Shown here one piece after another: positions 1,561 to 10,651 of a stretch of 41,204 bases of DNA. The notes under the pieces were generated by a model. The model worked only from the letters and a program-made list of their open reading frames with translations. It ran no database searches and was not told where the DNA came from. The stretch lies in NCBI GenBank assembly GCA_012729575.1, contig JAAYCW010000135.1:1-41204 (forward strand), written 5' to 3'. Source of the DNA: Actinomycetota bacterium (lineage in GTDB: Bacteria > Actinomycetota > Thermoleophilia > RBG-16-64-13). Numbering within the stretch: position 1 is the stretch's first letter; each line of letters starts with the position of its first letter. Both the position numbers and the translations under genes were made by a program.

Positions 1561-2904
1561 GTGCACGAATACGCACGCGAGGTGATCGAAGCCGTCAAGG
1601 CCAGGGATCCTCTGGAACCAGAATTCCATCAGGCTGTGACGGAGGTGTTCGAGTCGGTCGCTCCGGTTCTGGATGCCCATTCTGAGTATCGCCAGGCCCG
1701 CATCCTTGAGCGTCTGGTAGAACCCGAACGGGTGATCATGTTCCGCGTGCCCTGGGTCGACGACAACGGCGATATCCAGGTGAACCGTGGCTTCCGGGTG
1801 CAGATGAATTCCGCCATCGGCCCCTACAAGGGCGGATTGCGCTTCCACCCCTCGGTGAATCTGAGCACCATGAAGTTCCTTGGCTTCGAGCAGACCTTCA
1901 AGAACGCCCTCACCACCCTCCCCATGGGGGGCGCCAAAGGCGGGTCCGATTTCAACCCCAAGGGTAAGAGTGACAGCGAGGTCATGCGCTTCTGCCAGAG
2001 CTTCATGACCGAGCTGTACCGGCATATCGGGCCCGATACGGATGTCCCTGCGGGCGACATCGGCGTCGGTGGACGGGAGATCGGCTACCTCTTCGGTCAA
2101 TACAAGCGTCTGAAAAACGAGTTCACCGGGGTGCTCACCGGCAAAGGGCTGGGCTGGGGCGGATCGCTCGTCAGACCGGAGGCCACCGGCTACGGCGTGG
2201 CCTATTTCATCACCGAGATGCTGGCGACGAAGGGGGATTCGTTGGCCGGGAAGACTATAGCCATCTCCGGTTACGGCAACGTGGGGACCTACTTCGTGCA
2301 GAAGGCCGTCGAGTTCGGAGCCAAGGTGGTCAGTATAGGCGACGAATACGGTTGCGCCTTCGATCCTGACGGCATCTCGGGCGAGAAGCTCGCCTATATG
2401 GCCGATCTATGGACCGTGTACCGCAAATCGGCCAAGGAGTACGCGGACAAGTTCGACTGCGAATGGAGGCCGGAGACTAAGCCGTGGCGTTTCATCAAGT
2501 GCGACATCGCCGTGCCGACGGCCATGCAGAACGAGATAGAGGCCGAGGATGCTGCGGCTCTGGTAGCCAACGGCTGCCAGGTGGTCTGTGAAGCCGCCAA
2601 CATGCCCTGCACTTCGGAGGCCATCCACGTCTTCGAAGAGGCTGGAGTCATGTACGCTCCGGGTAAGGCGGCGAATGCCGGGGGCGTGGCCACGTCGGGA
2701 CTGGAGATGTCGCAGAACAGCATGCGGCTCAGCTGGTCGAGTGATGAGGTGGATGGGCGCCTGCATCAGATCATGACCGGTATCCACCAGGCCTGTCTGG
2801 AAGCGGCCGAACGCTTCGGGTCGCCGGGCGACTACGCCACGGGAGCGAACATCGCCGGCTTTCTCAAAGTTGCCAACGCCATGATGGACCAGGGTGTCGT
2901 CTAG
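1561..2904 (+). CDS. gdhA: Glutamate dehydrogenase, first tandem copy
   Basis: A 447-residue hexameric-type glutamate dehydrogenase that interconverts glutamate with 2-oxoglutarate and ammonium in the cytoplasm. The substrate-binding segment NSAIGPYKGGLRFHPSVN and the catalytic-lysine segment PMGGAKGGSDFNPKGKSD are intact. The Rossmann domain begins at SGYGNVGTYF, and the end of beta-2 reads SIGDEYG rather than the SDSSG of E. coli-like NADP enzymes, so its cofactor preference may differ from the second copy. The GTG start at 1561 is chosen because GGAGGTGAG lies just upstream. The length is normal for the family. It is followed after 60 bp by a paralogue with the same N-terminal half. Function is secure; nucleotide specificity is inference. 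Confidence 0.95.
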   Translation: MHEYAREVIEAVKARDPLEPEFHQAVTEVFESVAPVLDAHSEYRQARILERLVEPERVIMFRVPWVDDNGDIQVNRGFRVQMNSAIGPYKGGLRFHPSVNLSTMKFLGFEQTFKNALTTLPMGGAKGGSDFNPKGKSDSEVMRFCQSFMTELYRHIGPDTDVPAGDIGVGGREIGYLFGQYKRLKNEFTGVLTGKGLGWGGSLVRPEATGYGVAYFITEMLATKGDSLAGKTIAISGYGNVGTYFVQKAVEFGAKVVSIGDEYGCAFDPDGISGEKLAYMADLWTVYRKSAKEYADKFDCEWRPETKPWRFIKCDIAVPTAMQNEIEAEDAAALVANGCQVVCEAANMPCTSEAIHVFEEAGVMYAPGKAANAGGVATSGLEMSQNSMRLSWSSDEVDGRLHQIMTGIHQACLEAAERFGSPGDYATGANIAGFLKVANAMMDQGVV

Positions 2905-2964: not shown

Positions 2965-4329
2965 GTGAACGAGTACTGCCGATGGGCCAGTAAGGAACTG
3001 GTCCCAACTAAAGACCCTGGACAGCCGGAGTTCCACCAGGCGGTGGAGGAGGTCCTCGAGTCGGTCGCCCCTGTTCTCGACGCTCACTCCGAGTATCGCC
3101 AGGCCCGCATCCTGGAGCGACTGGTGGAGCCGGAGAGAGTAATCATGTTCCGCGTGCCTTGGGTGGACGACCGTGGTGAGATCCAGGTCAACCGGGGTTT
3201 CCGAGTGCAGATGAACTCGGCCATTGGTCCCTACAAGGGAGGCCTGCGGCTGCATCCGTCCGTCAACCTGAGCATCATCAAGTTCCTGGCTTTCGAGCAG
3301 GTCTTCAAGAACGCCCTCACCACCCTCCCCATGGGCGGCGCCAAGGGTGGATCCGATTTCAACCCCAAGGGCAAGAGCGACAACGAAGTCATGCGCTTCT
3401 GCCAGAGCTTCATGACCGAGCTGTACCGGCATATCGGTCCCGATACGGATGTCCCTGCGGGCGACATCGGCGTCGGTGGGCGGGAGATCGGCTACCTCTG
3501 GGGCCAGTACAAGCGTCTCCGCAACGAATTCACCGGGGCCCTCACCGGCAAGGGTACGGCGTGGGGTGGCTCTCTCATCCGGCCTGAAGCCACCGGGTAC
3601 GGGGTGGTGTATATCGCGACAGAGTACCTCGCCACCAAAGGCGAATCGTTGGAGGGCAAGACCTGTTTGGTCTCGGGTAGCGGGAACGTGGCCCAGTATA
3701 CTGTGGAGAAGCTGCTGGACCTGGGCGCCAAACCCGTCACCCTGTCCGACAGTTCGGGCTACATCTACGATGAGTCCGGGATAACCCGGGAGAAGCTCGC
3801 CTTCGTCATGAGGTTGAAGAACGTCATGCGCGGACGGATCTCCGAATACGTCTCCAAGTATCCAGAAGCGGTGTATCAAGAGGCAGATCCGACCCTGGGC
3901 TACAACCCGCTCTGGTCTCATCCCGCCGATTGCGCCTTCCCCTCTGCCACGCAGAATGAGATAAACGACCGCGATGCCGCCCATATGTTAAGAGAAGGGG
4001 TCCATCTGGTGGCTGAGGGAGCCAACATGCCCACTACCCCTGGGGCCATCGAGAACTTGGCCGACGGCGGAGCGGTCATCATCCCGGCGAAGGCCGCCAA
4101 CGCAGGCGGCGTGGCCGTCTCAGGGCTGGAGATGTCGCAGAACAGCATGCGCATCGCCTGGACGCGGGAAGAGGTGGACGCAAGACTCCAGGGCATCATG
4201 AAGGAGATCTTCACCACCATAACCGTTGCGGCGGAGCGTTATGGCCTGGAGAACGATCTCATAGCCGGGGCCAACATCGCCGGATTCCTGAAAGTTGCGA
4301 ACGCCATGATGGATCAGGGTGTGGTGTGA
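2965..4329 (+). CDS. gdhA: NADP-type glutamate dehydrogenase, second tandem copy
   Basis: A 454-residue glutamate dehydrogenase paralogous to the gene immediately upstream. The catalytic segment PMGGAKGGSDFNPKGKSD is the same as in the first copy. The nucleotide-binding domain instead reads SGSGNVAQYTVEK and LSDSSGYIYDESG, which is the E. coli GdhA NADP-type pattern. The two proteins are nearly identical over the substrate domain and differ most in the Rossmann domain, around residues 240-340. The GTG start follows GGGAGGGAGG with 4-5 nt spacing. The stop overlaps an upstream candidate GTG start for the next gene. A pair like this commonly splits assimilatory and catabolic roles, but that division is inference here. 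Confidence 0.95.
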   Translation: MNEYCRWASKELVPTKDPGQPEFHQAVEEVLESVAPVLDAHSEYRQARILERLVEPERVIMFRVPWVDDRGEIQVNRGFRVQMNSAIGPYKGGLRLHPSVNLSIIKFLAFEQVFKNALTTLPMGGAKGGSDFNPKGKSDNEVMRFCQSFMTELYRHIGPDTDVPAGDIGVGGREIGYLWGQYKRLRNEFTGALTGKGTAWGGSLIRPEATGYGVVYIATEYLATKGESLEGKTCLVSGSGNVAQYTVEKLLDLGAKPVTLSDSSGYIYDESGITREKLAFVMRLKNVMRGRISEYVSKYPEAVYQEADPTLGYNPLWSHPADCAFPSATQNEINDRDAAHMLREGVHLVAEGANMPTTPGAIENLADGGAVIIPAKAANAGGVAVSGLEMSQNSMRIAWTREEVDARLQGIMKEIFTTITVAAERYGLENDLIAGANIAGFLKVANAMMDQGVV

Positions 4330-4439: not shown

Positions 4440-7349
4440 ATGTCGCGCCGGGTGGAAGACATTATCCTGGTATCCAGCCTGTACGACACCTTCATCCTGC
4501 AGGAAGACGGCCAGCTCAGCGAGTTGATACTGAGCGAGTTTTTGGAGCTCAACCTCCATCACACGACCGGCCTGACCCACGTGTCCACGGGTGAGGAGGC
4601 GATCGCTCTGGCCAAGTCGCACAGCCGTTTCAACCTCATCATCACGGCTGTGAACGTGGGCGATATGGATGCCGTGGAGCTGGCCGAGAGGGTGCGGGAG
4701 GAGGGGCTGGATATCCCTGTGGTGCTCCTGGCCTACGACGGTGGCGAGCTGTCCGAGTATATGGCCCGGCAAGACACGGCGGCCTTGGAACGCATCTTCC
4801 TCTGGCAGGGTGATCCCAAGATACTCCTGGCCATAGTGAAGTACGTTGAGGACCGCCAGAACGTGGAGTACGACACCGGGGTGGCCGGTGTGCAGTGCAT
4901 CTTCTTGATCGAAGACAACATCCGCTTCTACTCGGCCTTCCTCCCGATCATGTACGACGAGGTCATCAGATACTCTCAGAGGCTGCTGACCAAGGGTATG
5001 AACATGGCGCACAAGATCCTACGGATGCGGGCGCGCCCCAAGATCCTATTGTGCGCGAACTTCGAGGAGGCTTGGGAGTACTTCTCCAAATACTCGGACC
5101 AAACCCTCGGCGTGATTGCCGATATGCAGTTCCCCCGAGAAGGTGTCCTCGACCCGGAGGCGGGGGTGGAGTTCGCTCAGAAAGTCCGGCAGAAATGGCC
5201 GGACATCCCCATACTCCTTCAGTCCAGCCGGGTGGAGAACGAGCGCCCGGCCCTGGAGGCGGGCGCGTCGTTCATGCTCAAGGGATCTCCAACGCTGCTG
5301 AAGGACCTGCGGCAGTTCATGGTCGGCAGGTTGGCCTTCGGCGACTTCGTCTTTCAGATGCCCGATGGGACGGTGGTGGATCGCGTACGCGATCTGCGCG
5401 GCCTTCTGGAGAGACTGCGGGTCGTGCCGGCGGAGAGCATCGCGTACCATGCGGACCGCAACGACTTCTCCCGCTGGCTGCGGGTGCGGACCGAATTCGA
5501 CCTTGCCCGTCATCTGCGGGTCCGCAGCAGCACCGACTACCCGGGCGTGGAGCAGCGCCGCAACTACCTCATCTCTCAGATTGACGCTTACCGGCGGGAG
5601 CAGGCTCGCGAGACCATCGGCGACTTCGATCCGTCTACGTTCGATCCCACGGCCAGCTTCGCCCGCATCGGCGGAGGTTCTCTGGGCGGAAAGGCTCGGG
5701 CGCTCGCCTTCGTCAGACGCCTCTTGGCCGATACAGACCTTGCGGACAAGTTCGAGGGGGTCAATATCACCGTGCCGCCTGCGGTGGTCCTCGGTACCGA
5801 TGTGTTCGATAAGTTCCTGGACGACAACAATCTGCGCGATTTCGCCATGAGCTGCAACGACGACGAGGAGATCGAGCGGGAGTTCGTCGCCGCCGGCTTC
5901 CCGAGAGAATACGAAGCCGACCTTGCCGCCTTCCTCGAGTTCATGTGCAGTCCCCTAGCCGTGAGGTCGTCCAGCCTACTCGAAGACTCGCAGTACCAGC
6001 CGCTTGCCGGTGTGTACAACACCTACATGCTCCCCAACAATCACGAGGAGCTGCAGGTGCGGCTGGAGAGGCTCGTAGAGGCGGTGAAACGGGTCTACGC
6101 CTCAACGTTTCTGACCTATGCCAAGAACTACTTCAAAGTGACCCCCTACCTGCTGGAAGAGGAGAAGATGGCCGTTCTCATCCAGAAGGTGGTGGGATCC
6201 CGGCACGGTCCTCGCTTCTATCCCCATCTGGCCGGTGCGGCGCGTTCGTACAACTTCTATCCCCATCCGCCACAGACTCCTGAGCAGGGTGTGGTGGCCG
6301 TGGCTCTAGGTTTGGGCCGTACAGTGGTGGATGGAGAGACCTCGCTCTCCTTCTGTCCCGCCTGTCCTCAGAACCTTGTCCAGTTCTCTACGCCCCGGGA
6401 CATGCTCGAGAACTCCCAGCGCGAGTTTGTCTCCATCGAGATGGACGAAGAGGATGGGGAGATCACCGAGCGGCACCATCCGTTGGAGACGGCCGAGGAA
6501 GACGGCACTCTCAGCTACGTTGGTTCCACGTACTCGGCCGACAACGACGTCGTTTATGACGGTACCTCCCGCCCGGGTATCCGGCTGGTAAGTTTCGCCC
6601 CCATACTCAAGCACCACACCTTCCCTCTGCCGGAGATCATGGTCCATCTGCTGGAGTTCGGGAAGAAGGGGATGAATGGTGAAGTGGAGATCGAGTTCGC
6701 AGTCGATCTGACGAGCGCCAAGGGAAAGCCCAAGGAGTTCGGATTCCTCCAGCTCCGACCCATGGCCATGACCAGGGAAAGTGAAGAGGTCGATACGGAG
6801 AACATCGATCCCGGCAGCGTCCTCTGCCGGTCGGAGAGTGTCCTGGGCAACGGAAAGTTCACTCATATACACGACCTGGTGACGGTCGACCGGCGTCGAT
6901 TCGTCCGGGCCAAGACCCGCGAAGTGGCTGCGGAGATAACCCGTCTGAACGCCGAACTGCTGAGTAGCGGTGTCCCTTATGCCCTCATTGGTCTGGGTAG
7001 GTTGGGGTCGGCCGACCCTTGGTTGGGGATCCCCGTCACTTGGGACCAGATCTCGGGGGCCCGGGTCATAGTCGAAGCGGGCTTCGAAGACCTGCATGTT
7101 ACCCCCTCGCAGGGTAGTCACTTCTTCCAGAACCTGACCTCCTTCCGGGTGGGCTTCTTCACGGTGAATCCGGAGGCGGGAGAAGGTTTCGTCGACTGGA
7201 CCTGGCTCGAGGAGCAGATGGGGGAACCGCAGGATGGTTTCGTGCGCCACCTCCATTTTTCGGAGCCGCTGGTGGTCAAGATCAATGGCAAGCGCCAGCA
7301 GGGGGTTATCTTGAAACCCGGTCACGGCGGGGTGAACGGCGGGCAATGA
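4440..7349 (+). CDS. Receiver-like domains fused to PEP synthase/PPDK ATP-binding domain
   Basis: A large cytoplasmic protein, 969 residues from the ATG at 4440 (an in-frame GTG at 4326 overlapping the gdhA2 stop is the alternative). Residues about 1-125 and 160-300 look like two response-regulator folds. In the first, the strand that should carry the phosphoacceptor reads LIITAVNVGDMD, without the usual Asp. The second reads GVIADMQFPREG, with Asp228 in place and a later Lys in FMLKGS. Residues about 410-790 match the ATP-grasp-like N domain of pyruvate phosphate dikinase/PEP synthase, with GGSLGGKARALAF and PLAVRSSSLLEDS. There is no phosphohistidine swivel domain and no PEP/pyruvate TIM barrel. 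The C-terminal part carries LIGLGRLGSADPWLGIPV and PSQGSHFFQNLTSF, which I recall as a conserved block in annotated PEP/pyruvate-binding proteins of unknown role. It should not be called a true PEP synthase. The reaction is unknown. Confidence 0.8.
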   Translation: MSRRVEDIILVSSLYDTFILQEDGQLSELILSEFLELNLHHTTGLTHVSTGEEAIALAKSHSRFNLIITAVNVGDMDAVELAERVREEGLDIPVVLLAYDGGELSEYMARQDTAALERIFLWQGDPKILLAIVKYVEDRQNVEYDTGVAGVQCIFLIEDNIRFYSAFLPIMYDEVIRYSQRLLTKGMNMAHKILRMRARPKILLCANFEEAWEYFSKYSDQTLGVIADMQFPREGVLDPEAGVEFAQKVRQKWPDIPILLQSSRVENERPALEAGASFMLKGSPTLLKDLRQFMVGRLAFGDFVFQMPDGTVVDRVRDLRGLLERLRVVPAESIAYHADRNDFSRWLRVRTEFDLARHLRVRSSTDYPGVEQRRNYLISQIDAYRREQARETIGDFDPSTFDPTASFARIGGGSLGGKARALAFVRRLLADTDLADKFEGVNITVPPAVVLGTDVFDKFLDDNNLRDFAMSCNDDEEIEREFVAAGFPREYEADLAAFLEFMCSPLAVRSSSLLEDSQYQPLAGVYNTYMLPNNHEELQVRLERLVEAVKRVYASTFLTYAKNYFKVTPYLLEEEKMAVLIQKVVGSRHGPRFYPHLAGAARSYNFYPHPPQTPEQGVVAVALGLGRTVVDGETSLSFCPACPQNLVQFSTPRDMLENSQREFVSIEMDEEDGEITERHHPLETAEEDGTLSYVGSTYSADNDVVYDGTSRPGIRLVSFAPILKHHTFPLPEIMVHLLEFGKKGMNGEVEIEFAVDLTSAKGKPKEFGFLQLRPMAMTRESEEVDTENIDPGSVLCRSESVLGNGKFTHIHDLVTVDRRRFVRAKTREVAAEITRLNAELLSSGVPYALIGLGRLGSADPWLGIPVTWDQISGARVIVEAGFEDLHVTPSQGSHFFQNLTSFRVGFFTVNPEAGEGFVDWTWLEEQMGEPQDGFVRHLHFSEPLVVKINGKRQQGVILKPGHGGVNGGQ

Positions 7350-8323
7350 GAGATTCGCTGGTCGATAGACGTTCGGTGGAACGACTGCTTCTTCTGGTGG
7401 GGGCACTCCGCTCCGGGTTGATCGATGCCCTAGGTGGCGAGGAAGCGCTGCCCCTTGAGGAGGTGGCGCGCATCGCCGGCACCGACCTCCGGGCCAGTCG
7501 CATCGTCCTTGCAGCTCTGGCTTCCGAGGGCGTCGTCGAGGAGACCGAGGGAGCCGACGGTAACATCTTCTACCGGCTGTCACCGGTGGGGCGGGCCCAC
7601 CTGCTGAACGAGGGGCCGGATTTGGAGCGGGCCGGTCTGGTCCATGAGGTCAACAAGTTGCGGGGCTGGCTGGAGTTGCCGGAGGTGATCCGCACCGGCA
7701 GGCCGGCGTCTGGCGGTATGGCGCGCAAAGATGTGCGCAGTCGGGCCATGGCCATGGGGGAGCGCGACCCGGCCGTTCTCCAAGAGGTGGTGGAGCGCTG
7801 CTTCGGCTATGCGGGGGGTCGCATCCATACCATGGTAGACGTAGGCGGCTCCGTGGGTCACCTGGCCCGCGAGTTCTCTCGTCGTGGAGTGAAGACCTCC
7901 CTCTTCGACAAGGAGGAGGTGCTGCCTTTCGCCCGCGAGTATCTCGGCGAAGAGGCCGGTGATATCACTTTTCTCGGGGGCGACCTCACCGAGGCGCTCC
8001 CGGCGGGGCCGTTCGACCTGGTGTACTTCGGCAATGTTCTTCACATCTACAGTCCGGAGACCAACGCCCGGGTCGCGCTCGAGGCTTACCGAGCCACCTC
8101 ACGCGGCGGCACCATAGCCATCCAAGACTACGTGTGGGGCCGCAGCCCGGCTGCAGCTCTGTTCGCGGTGAACATGCTGCGCTCGACGGACGACGGAGGA
8201 GTGTGGACCGAAGAGCAGCACCGGGCGTGGCTGACCCGTGCCGGCTTCACCGGTGTCGAGGTCCTCGACCTGGATACCAGCGGGGGCCAATTGGTCCTGG
8301 GTAGACGTCCCGCAGGTTTATGA
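7346..8323 (+). CDS. SAM-dependent O-methyltransferase-like protein
   Basis: A 325-residue protein resembling the Methyltransf_2 group of small-molecule O-methyltransferases. Residues about 1-95 form the winged-helix dimerisation domain. The SAM-binding domain follows, with motif I as MVDVGGSVGHLAREF near residue 155, an acidic residue at the end of beta-2 in TSLFDKEEV, and LVYFGNVLHIY near residue 230. The ATG at 7346 overlaps the stop of the upstream gene (ATGA), which points to translational coupling and co-expression with the receiver/PEP-synthase-like protein. The substrate cannot be deduced. The C-terminal half lacks the His typical of plant catechol-type enzymes as far as I can see. 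A role as modifier of a small molecule made by the upstream protein is speculation. Confidence 0.75.
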   Translation: MRDSLVDRRSVERLLLLVGALRSGLIDALGGEEALPLEEVARIAGTDLRASRIVLAALASEGVVEETEGADGNIFYRLSPVGRAHLLNEGPDLERAGLVHEVNKLRGWLELPEVIRTGRPASGGMARKDVRSRAMAMGERDPAVLQEVVERCFGYAGGRIHTMVDVGGSVGHLAREFSRRGVKTSLFDKEEVLPFAREYLGEEAGDITFLGGDLTEALPAGPFDLVYFGNVLHIYSPETNARVALEAYRATSRGGTIAIQDYVWGRSPAAALFAVNMLRSTDDGGVWTEEQHRAWLTRAGFTGVEVLDLDTSGGQLVLGRRPAGL

Positions 8324-8402
8324 AGGGTGGGGAGCGGGCAGCTTTCAAAGGGTTTCTGAAGGCTGCAGGGGGTAGCTACTAAGGCCGAGGAGGGTTGAAT
8401 CC

Positions 8403-9005
8403 TTGCTGACGGTATTGGGTCTGGCGGGAAGTCATCGCCGGGGCGGCAACACCGAGACCCTCCTCGACTGGTGCCTCGAAGCCGCGCGCGACGAAGGCGC
8501 CGAGGTGGTCAAGTTCAGGCTGTCCGATTTGGATCTACACGGCTGCCGGGCCTGCGACGGTTGCTGGAAAGACGGTACCTGCGTGGTCAGGGACGGTATG
8601 CAGGACCTGTTCCCGCACCTACGGTCGGCGGACTCGATCGTGCTCGCCGCTCCCACGTACTTCATGGGGATGCCCGCGGTGCCCAAGATGATGGTGGATC
8701 GCTGTCAGTGCTTCTGGGCCCTCAAGTACGTGCTCAAGCGGTCGCTCGTAGAACCAGGTCGGCCGACCCGTTTTGGAGCCTATCTAAGCTGTTCGGGGAC
8801 CAAGCACCCGCGCGCGTTCGATGGTGCCAGGGAGGTTGTGAGCAGCTTGTGGCATGTCCTGGAGGTGAAATCGGTCGGGGAGATGCTCATTCCAGGCGTG
8901 GACGCGAAGGGCGAGATAGAGGAGCAGCCCGGAGCGCTCGACCAGGCGGAGGCTGTCGGCCGCCGTCTGGCTGGGGAGAGGGCTCAGGAAAAGGAGGAGA
9001 CGTGA
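8403..9005 (+). CDS. NADPH-dependent FMN reductase / iron-sulfur flavoprotein-like
   Basis: A 200-residue flavodoxin-fold protein. The N-terminus VLGLAGSHRRGGNTETLLD is the FMN phosphate-binding loop typical of the NADPH-dependent FMN reductase family. CRACDGCWKDGTC, around residues 48-60, has the C-x2-C-x5-C spacing of iron-sulfur flavoproteins and related electron-transfer proteins. AAPTYFMGMPAVPKMMVDR is the usual second flavin-contact loop. It probably moves electrons between NAD(P)H, flavin and an acceptor in the cytoplasm; the physiological partner is unknown. The start is TTG at 8403, supported by GAGGAGGG about 8 nt before. Its stop overlaps the GTG of the following zinc-ribbon gene. 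Whether a cluster is actually bound depends on a fourth ligand that I cannot assign. Confidence 0.82.
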   Translation: MLTVLGLAGSHRRGGNTETLLDWCLEAARDEGAEVVKFRLSDLDLHGCRACDGCWKDGTCVVRDGMQDLFPHLRSADSIVLAAPTYFMGMPAVPKMMVDRCQCFWALKYVLKRSLVEPGRPTRFGAYLSCSGTKHPRAFDGAREVVSSLWHVLEVKSVGEMLIPGVDAKGEIEEQPGALDQAEAVGRRLAGERAQEKEET

Positions 9006-9586: not shown

Positions 9587-10651
9587 ATGACAGACATACC
9601 TAGACTGACCACCTTGTCGCACGGCTCCGGCTGAGCGTGCAAGCTGGGCCCCAAGGACTTGGGGCAGGTTATGAGTATGCTGCCGCGGGTCGAAGATCCA
9701 GCTCTGTTGGTGGGATCAGACACGCTCGATGATGCGGCCGTCTACCGCTTGAGTGACGAGCTCGCCCTGGTGCAGACGGTGGATTTCTTCACGCCTGTCG
9801 TCGATGACCCTTTCGACTTCGGACGCATTGCGGCCGCCAACGCCTTCTCCGACATATACGCTATGGGCGGGCGCCCGTTGACGGCTCTCAACATCGTCTG
9901 TTTCCCCAAAGAAGTGCTACCTCTCGACTACCTTGGCCGCATCTTACAGGGCGGTGCTGAGACGGCCCGTTTGGCCGGAGCGACCATCGTCGGAGGACAC
10001 ACCATCGACGACCCAGAGCCGAAGTACGGCCTGGCGGTGACGGGTCTGGTGCGCCCCGGCGAAGAATTGACCAATGCGACCGCCAGGCCCGGCGACTTCC
10101 TAGTGCTCACCAAGCCTCTGGGAACGGGCATCATAGCCACCGCCATCAAGCAGGGCACGGCCTCCAGCACTGCTATAGCCGCCGCAACCGCAGCCATGGT
10201 CCAGCTCAACCGGGATGCTTCCGAAGTGGCCCGAGAACACGGAGTGGAGGGCCTCACCGACATCACCGGCTTCGGCCTCCTCGGCCACCTCACCGAACTG
10301 TGCCGGGCCAGCACGGTGGGAGCAGATCTCTGGTTTGAGAGACTCCCGCTGCTCCCCGACGCGGCCGATCTGGTTCGCGGAGGAGTGGCGCCGGGTGGCA
10401 CCAGACGCAATCTGGAACACGTGGAGCCGTGGACCACGTTCGACGAGACGTTGGAGCCCTGGCAGCGCCTGCTGTGCGCCGATGCTCAGACCTCGGGCGG
10501 CCTGGTGCTGTCGGTGCCGGAGGCGCGCCTGGCTGAGGTGTTGAAGGCTCTGGACCTGCGGCACGTCTCGGCGGCCGCCGTCATCGGAAGGGTGCGCGAA
10601 CCGGGGGACAAGCTGTTGCGCGTTCGCGCGAGCGCAAACGCGACCATCTAG
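9587..10651 (+). CDS. selD: Selenophosphate synthetase, itself a selenoprotein (UGA-encoded Sec16)
   Basis: The frame starting at ATG 9587 is interrupted only by a TGA at 9632-9634 and then stays open to TAG at 10649. Reading TGA as selenocysteine gives 354 residues, with HGSG-Sec-ACK at residues 12-19. This aligns with the E. coli SelD active site HGAGCGCK, so Sec16 replaces catalytic Cys17 and Lys19 matches Lys20. SelD makes selenophosphate from selenide and ATP for Sec-tRNA (and sometimes selenouridine) synthesis. Other family signatures are present: GSDTLDDAAVY, ANAFSDIYAMGG, GGHTIDDPEPKYG and DITGFGLLGH. The start is supported by GGAGGTGA at 9573-9580. Starting at codons after the TGA would remove the catalytic loop, so a plain call from about 9659 would be wrong. 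It ends 1 bp from the convergent anti-sigma gene. Confidence 0.93.
9632..9668 (+). promoter_or_regulatory. UGA selenocysteine codon with bacterial SECIS-like hairpin
   Basis: The in-frame TGA occupies 9632-9634. Starting 13 nt after it, GCCCCAA (9648-9654) pairs perfectly with TTGGGGC (9659-9665) around a GGAC loop, giving a 7-bp stem whose loop guanines are 21-22 nt past the UGA. Bacterial SECIS elements lie within the coding sequence just after the UGA and present a guanine in the apical loop to SelB; E. coli fdhF has a GGUC loop at a similar distance. Binding by SelB is inferred. Confidence 0.82.

Follow-up and report, generated by a model that had tools for sequence, protein, structure and literature searches.

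RPK, a receiver-PPDK_N protein kept beside glutamate dehydrogenase genes in bacteria and one archaeon: a candidate regulator of this enzyme

A 969-residue protein, named RPK here, is encoded at positions 4440-7349 of a 41,204-nucleotide stretch of DNA from an Actinomycetota bacterium (hereafter the window). Two receiver domains are followed in this protein by the ATP-binding head of PEP synthase and by an orphan C-terminal domain. Since its gene stands beside gdh, the gene of glutamate dehydrogenase (GDH), in very different bacteria and in one archaeon, RPK is probably a dedicated controller of GDH that has long been overlooked. It is proposed with moderate confidence that RPK is a two-component-controlled, ATP-using regulator dedicated to GDH or to the glutamate/2-oxoglutarate node. 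GDH is one of the main routes by which ammonia enters metabolism, and its control by RPK, if true, would provide a role for those receiver-PPDK fusions that censuses list without a function.

The locus reads gdh1, gdh2, RPK and an O-methyltransferase gene, all on the forward strand according to the open reading frame calls. Its features are the following (residue numbers are those of RPK).

1561..2904 (+): gdh1, glutamate dehydrogenase of the NADP-GDH family (NF006929, 730 bits; PF00208/PF02812)
2965..4329 (+): gdh2, glutamate dehydrogenase (NF006929, 718 bits; ELFV dehydrogenase/NADP-GDH)
4440..7349 (+): RPK, 969 aa, REC1-REC2-linker-PPDK_N-orphan C-terminal domain (Pfam, homologue alignment)
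4452..4844 (+): REC1, degenerate receiver, about residues 5-135 (Pfam 7e-9; columns over 98 homologues)
4881..5333 (+): REC2, complete receiver, about residues 148-298 (98 homologues; Foldseek to PleD; hhalign against REC1)
5121..5123 (+): codon of D228, expected phosphoacceptor of REC2 (Asp in 98/98 homologues)
5337..5639 (+): helical linker, residues 300-400, with conserved H337, S344 and R350, weakly DUF5752-like (Pfam, homologue alignment)
5679..6803 (+): PPDK_N ATP-binding head, residues 414-788 (PF01326, 1e-35)
6804..7322 (+): orphan C-terminal domain, residues 789-961 (homologue alignment; AlphaFold model)
7119..7121 (+): codon of H894 (invariant in 98 RPK homologues, and in 31/31 sequences with the paralogues included)
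7346..8323 (+): O-methyltransferase, MfnG-like, Methyltransf_2 in Pfam, translationally coupled to RPK

An earlier note, made from the letters of the window, had described tandem gdh genes ahead of a 969-residue protein and a translationally coupled methyltransferase behind it. The locus is indeed built in this way: two NADP-type gdh frames precede RPK, the second ending 110 bases before its start, and the start of the methyltransferase gene shares 4 bases (ATGA) with the stop of RPK. The RPK start, ATG at 4440, is kept in 98% of homologues, and gdh2 is the host copy closest to the RPK-linked gdh genes found elsewhere, with about 60-75% identity to many of them. Upstream of gdh1, a 441-aa open frame on the reverse strand (2-1324) runs off the start of the window and looks by eye like a DDE transposase.

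The N-terminal half of RPK finds its best structural match, using Foldseek, in the tandem receivers of PleD, and REC1 and REC2 are related to one another by hhalign with a probability of 95%. Pfam detects a Response_reg domain at residues 22-98 (7e-9) and misses REC2 in the host sequence; in a Bacteroides homologue, it is the second receiver that Pfam detects best. The two domains are clearly distinguished by their residue columns over 98 homologues. REC2 retains the acidic pair, the phosphoacceptor Asp, the Thr/Ser and the Lys of a receiver (E158, D228, S262 and K281 in 98/98 homologues, D159 in 97/98), whereas REC1 has no Asp at positions 69-72 in nearly all of them and has also lost the Lys, close to whose expected position an invariant tryptophan, W122, is found. 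The DUF5752 match of the linker, at residues 314-388, lies below the Pfam cut-off. Tandem-receiver response regulators such as PleD share with RPK the two consecutive receivers; their output is a GGDEF domain, whereas that of RPK is an ATP head with an orphan domain. REC-PPDK fusions are already recorded as an architecture (PMC5847659, PMC4395418), and receivers without the Asp have been reported to be enriched with PPDK (PMC4395418).

The ATP head can be aligned through its motifs GGK, RSS..ED, IE(F/W) and Q.R with the PPDK of the host and with PEP synthases, the automatic alignment misplacing the host PPDK in the RSS stretch. Residues K418, R509, E515, D516, E752, Q771 and R773 are conserved, with few or no exceptions in RPK and the related proteins. 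In this region AlphaFold's model of the full-length protein is of low quality (mean pLDDT 61.5), and no claim is therefore made on the arrangement of the domains. PEP synthase and PPDK possess the same ATP-binding head, with its catalytic residues, together with a phosphohistidine swivel and a PEP barrel; RPK has no barrel and no detectable swivel, and carries instead two receivers in front and the orphan domain behind. No Pfam match to the PEP/pyruvate-binding TIM barrel was found in RPK, in which only the 170-aa orphan domain remains after residue 788.

This C-terminal domain has an invariant core made of G853, R854, G856, E879, S890, G892, H894 and F895. Its AlphaFold model is confident (pLDDT 84.6, pTM 0.84) and has no match in the PDB at E <= 0.001 nor in a library of viral structures, so that "unmatched" is to be understood relative to solved and viral structures. 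By eye, its GSHFFQN stretch resembles the TSHAAI of the swivel; the idea of a divergent swivel was rejected after profile comparison and fold search. Since RPK shows no PF00391 match, the C-terminal block reaches an hhalign probability of only 0.2 against the swivel in the set-up that relates REC1 to REC2 at 95, and the structural search is empty, the last 170 residues are considered as an orphan domain, the invariant set of which reads G-R-G..E..S-x-G-x-H-F. The domain reading of the earlier note, namely two receiver-like domains of which one lacks the phosphoacceptor Asp, the ATP-binding domain of PEP synthase with neither swivel nor PEP-binding barrel, and a conserved C-terminal block of unrecognised kind, is confirmed by these comparisons. 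A complete PPDK split into adjacent genes, the arrangement which that note had opposed to its own reading, was not observed among the homologues, and the host encodes its PPDK separately, as one complete gene located on a different contig.

The link to nitrogen metabolism suggested by the earlier note is strongly supported by gene order and by co-occurrence. When the full-length homologues were clustered at 70% identity (n=38), gdh was found within 2 kb of RPK in 29/38 clusters, a lower bound because the inspection of most loci was limited to flanks of 1.5 kb; it lies mostly directly upstream and on the same strand. Even if 5% of loci had such a neighbour as background, the binomial tail would amount to 2e-30, to be taken as an order of magnitude since the clusters are not fully independent. 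This linkage extends over the host family of Actinomycetota, Ignavibacteriales and other Bacteroidota, Krumholzibacteriia, three genomes from the phylum of a Deltaproteobacteria MAG, and one archaeon of the Thermoplasmata. The host protein itself combines the full architecture, the invariant C-terminal motif and the gdh neighbour that characterize the RPK family. Within the host family, this GDH is present in 12/12 genomes with RPK versus 1/6 without (p = 7e-4), and in the single exception (G007) the contig breaks off in gdh, just ahead of the expected position of RPK. Related families contain many gdh genes at 54-70% identity without having RPK, from which it follows that GDH does not generally need RPK; GDH without RPK is likewise found elsewhere in the host class. 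A residue signature separating RPK-linked from RPK-free GDHs was looked for by comparison, and nothing convincing emerged.

Two paralogue subfamilies share the head and the tail of RPK, including H894 in their common invariant core. The first one, of about 520-600 aa and devoid of receivers, adjoins divergent gdh genes. The second one, of about 870 aa, has an N-terminus resembling KaiC by inspection, Pfam finding PPDK_N only; it stands beside gdh in several genomes. In the host genome, an 865-aa protein of this KaiC-like/PPDK_N type is encoded within a gltB-gltD-paralogue-glnA array on one strand (L073:7360-17455), and the order is identical in a sister species (L072). Some RPK loci devoid of adjacent gdh are informative as well. 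Three genes for subunits of a 2-oxoacid:acceptor oxidoreductase, with best models of the 2-oxoacid/2-oxoglutarate type, directly precede RPK on the same strand (5900-8907) in a Deltaproteobacteria MAG (L170), and alanine-type aminotransferases are found nearby at other loci (L165-L167). These enzymes point to the glutamate/2-oxoglutarate node, which the hybrid sensor described below does not. At a further locus without gdh nearby (L158:6708-14872), two divergent RPK copies, at about 37% and 54% identity to Bacteroides RPK, lie close together and are followed by a gene resembling by eye a transhydrogenase/alanine dehydrogenase subunit. An apparent 1542-aa fusion (L160) was discarded, its extra N-terminal stretch looking like a chance open frame. 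Viral contigs yielded no relatives, three "phage" matches being unannotated faecal contigs, perhaps chromosomal.

In a genus recognised as Bacteroides-like by its gene content and by 80-84% identity to Phocaeicola, RPK is a near-core gene found in 97/100 genomes, in many cases at the gdh locus. Gene orders vary: gdhB can be followed by a convergent RPK, or gdhA and RPK can diverge, in some cases on either side of a 712-aa gene, and in one clade RPK lies away from gdh. In several Bacteroides, a hybrid two-component sensor divergent from RPK takes the place of gdh; apart from this sensor, no histidine kinase gene is fixed beside RPK at the inspected loci. One such gene, a Reg_prop hybrid sensor with gdh not adjacent (L209:3755-7687), is a possible partner kinase.

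The Bacteroides genes may also be connected with an older observation. In B. thetaiotaomicron, gdh is presumably represented by BT_1970 and BT_1973, so that BT_1972 would correspond to RPK. BT_1971 is a catalase (PMC4595636). One genome shows the order gdhA-RPK-catalase-gdhB, an arrangement that fits the B. thetaiotaomicron locus as its order is inferred. In a study of this organism published in 1996, a 3-kb downstream segment reportedly restored GDH activity in trans. The title of the 1996 paper announces one or several trans-acting genes beside gdhA that affect GDH activity. Widespread, conserved and gdh-linked, and combining an intact ATP site with a complete receiver and an output domain that matches no solved structure, RPK is a concrete candidate for this neighbouring gene in a gut Bacteroides, and the identification of its orthologue with the 1996 gene is suggestive; the catalase lying between one gdh and RPK in the fitting arrangement counts against it.

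The following mechanism can be envisaged on these grounds. Asp228 of REC2 would receive a phosphoryl group from a histidine kinase, and REC1, itself not phosphorylated, would serve as a partner for structure or sensing. The state of REC2 would gate the PEP-synthase-type head, which is expected to bind and split ATP. The C-terminal domain, through its invariant His894 and Arg854, would then pass a phosphoryl, pyrophosphoryl or adenylyl group, or a conformational change, to a target that is most likely GDH, switched on or off in this way, possibly by covalent modification. The ATP-dependent output of kinase-like or ligase-like type put forward in the earlier note is likewise hypothetical. Arguments counted for GDH regulation are the gdh linkage and co-occurrence, the paralogues by gdh and by gltD-glnA, the node enzymes, the invariant residues of REC2 and of the ATP head, the divergent sensor, the 1996 title and the near-core status in Bacteroides; counted against it are the RPK-free gdh genes of related families, the lack of a GDH signature and the Bacteroides clade with RPK away from gdh. 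A broader and only tentative proposal is that RPK founds a class of signal-gated enzymes spanning bacteria and archaea, in which the ATP head drives an unrecorded C-terminal domain to modify GDH covalently, the KaiC-like relatives acting likewise on other glutamate enzymes (GDH, or GOGAT/glutamine synthetase).

The main rival to the regulation of GDH is that RPK is itself a metabolic enzyme. Its ATP head would activate a small molecule of the glutamate/2-oxoglutarate/ammonia node, its C-terminal domain would complete a ligase- or kinase-type reaction, and the receivers would only exert control. Such heads are those of enzymes acting on small molecules by phosphorylation or ligation, the nearest NCBIfam models being PigC/RedH and PEPS, with rifamycin phosphotransferase lower in the list; the neighbours of RPK are enzymes of one metabolic node, and the invariant residues of its C-terminal domain form a compact set. 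The two receivers and the KaiC-like alternative N-terminus suggest nevertheless a signalling role, and neither a PEP/pyruvate barrel nor another recognisable substrate domain accompanies a tail without fold match; a metabolic enzyme is considered less likely than a regulator of GDH. The next rival, a regulator of something else, retains the signalling role and explains the gdh linkage by shared expression in a nitrogen regulon, the real target being elsewhere, for example in another phosphorelay or a transcription factor. It agrees with the receivers and with the hybrid sensor, in place of gdh, beside RPK in several Bacteroides. Shared expression alone, however, would hardly preserve a gdh neighbour across phyla and in an archaeon, nor would it explain the paralogues by divergent gdh genes and in the gltD/glnA array, and this explanation appears improbable. 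Finally, a decaying or split PEP synthase/PPDK without a function of its own, to which the missing swivel and barrel might point, was already disfavoured and is scarcely credible for a near-core gene of Bacteroides whose ATP-site, REC2 and C-terminal residues are invariant in 98 homologues down to roughly 36-40% identity, and whose homologue coexists in the host with a separate complete PPDK.

Dedicated regulation of nitrogen enzymes at the protein level is well represented by GlnE, which acts on glutamine synthetase, and by GarA/PknG, which acts on NAD-GDH. RPK would work alike, a nitrogen/carbon signal changing the activity of an assimilation enzyme; none of these proteins has domains homologous to those of RPK. 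The Bacteroidales proteins annotated as "PEP/pyruvate-binding domain-containing protein" belong to the same family as RPK (37-40% identity over the full length), and no description of what they do, of a link to gdh, of the C-terminal domain or of the relation to the paralogues was encountered. The open-access literature, most subscription papers lying outside the scope of the search, likewise yielded nothing on the linkage to gdh, on the orphan tail or on the paralogue associated with gltD and glnA.

The survey of neighbours proposed in the earlier note gave a divided answer: the gdh part was upheld, and the methyltransferase turned out to be coupled to RPK in the host genus alone. In a sister species (G001) the order gdh1-gdh2-RPK-methyltransferase is retained and seems to be spread over two contigs. 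Among other relatives, the methyltransferase lies across a gdh gene or near RPK and separate in some, and was not found near RPK in the rest. It was consequently rejected as a partner in the module, and is probably a lineage-specific neighbour outside of it. Next to it lies an NADPH-dependent FMN reductase-like gene (8403-9005), which in some relatives (L060, L062, L063) is also found close to the methyltransferase and to a PspC-like gene. Further downstream, selD (selenophosphate synthetase, 9587-10651), whose start is placed too late by the standard gene call (9659), contains an in-frame TGA codon at the position of the active site (LSHGSG-U-ACK), and SelD itself therefore looks like a selenoprotein.
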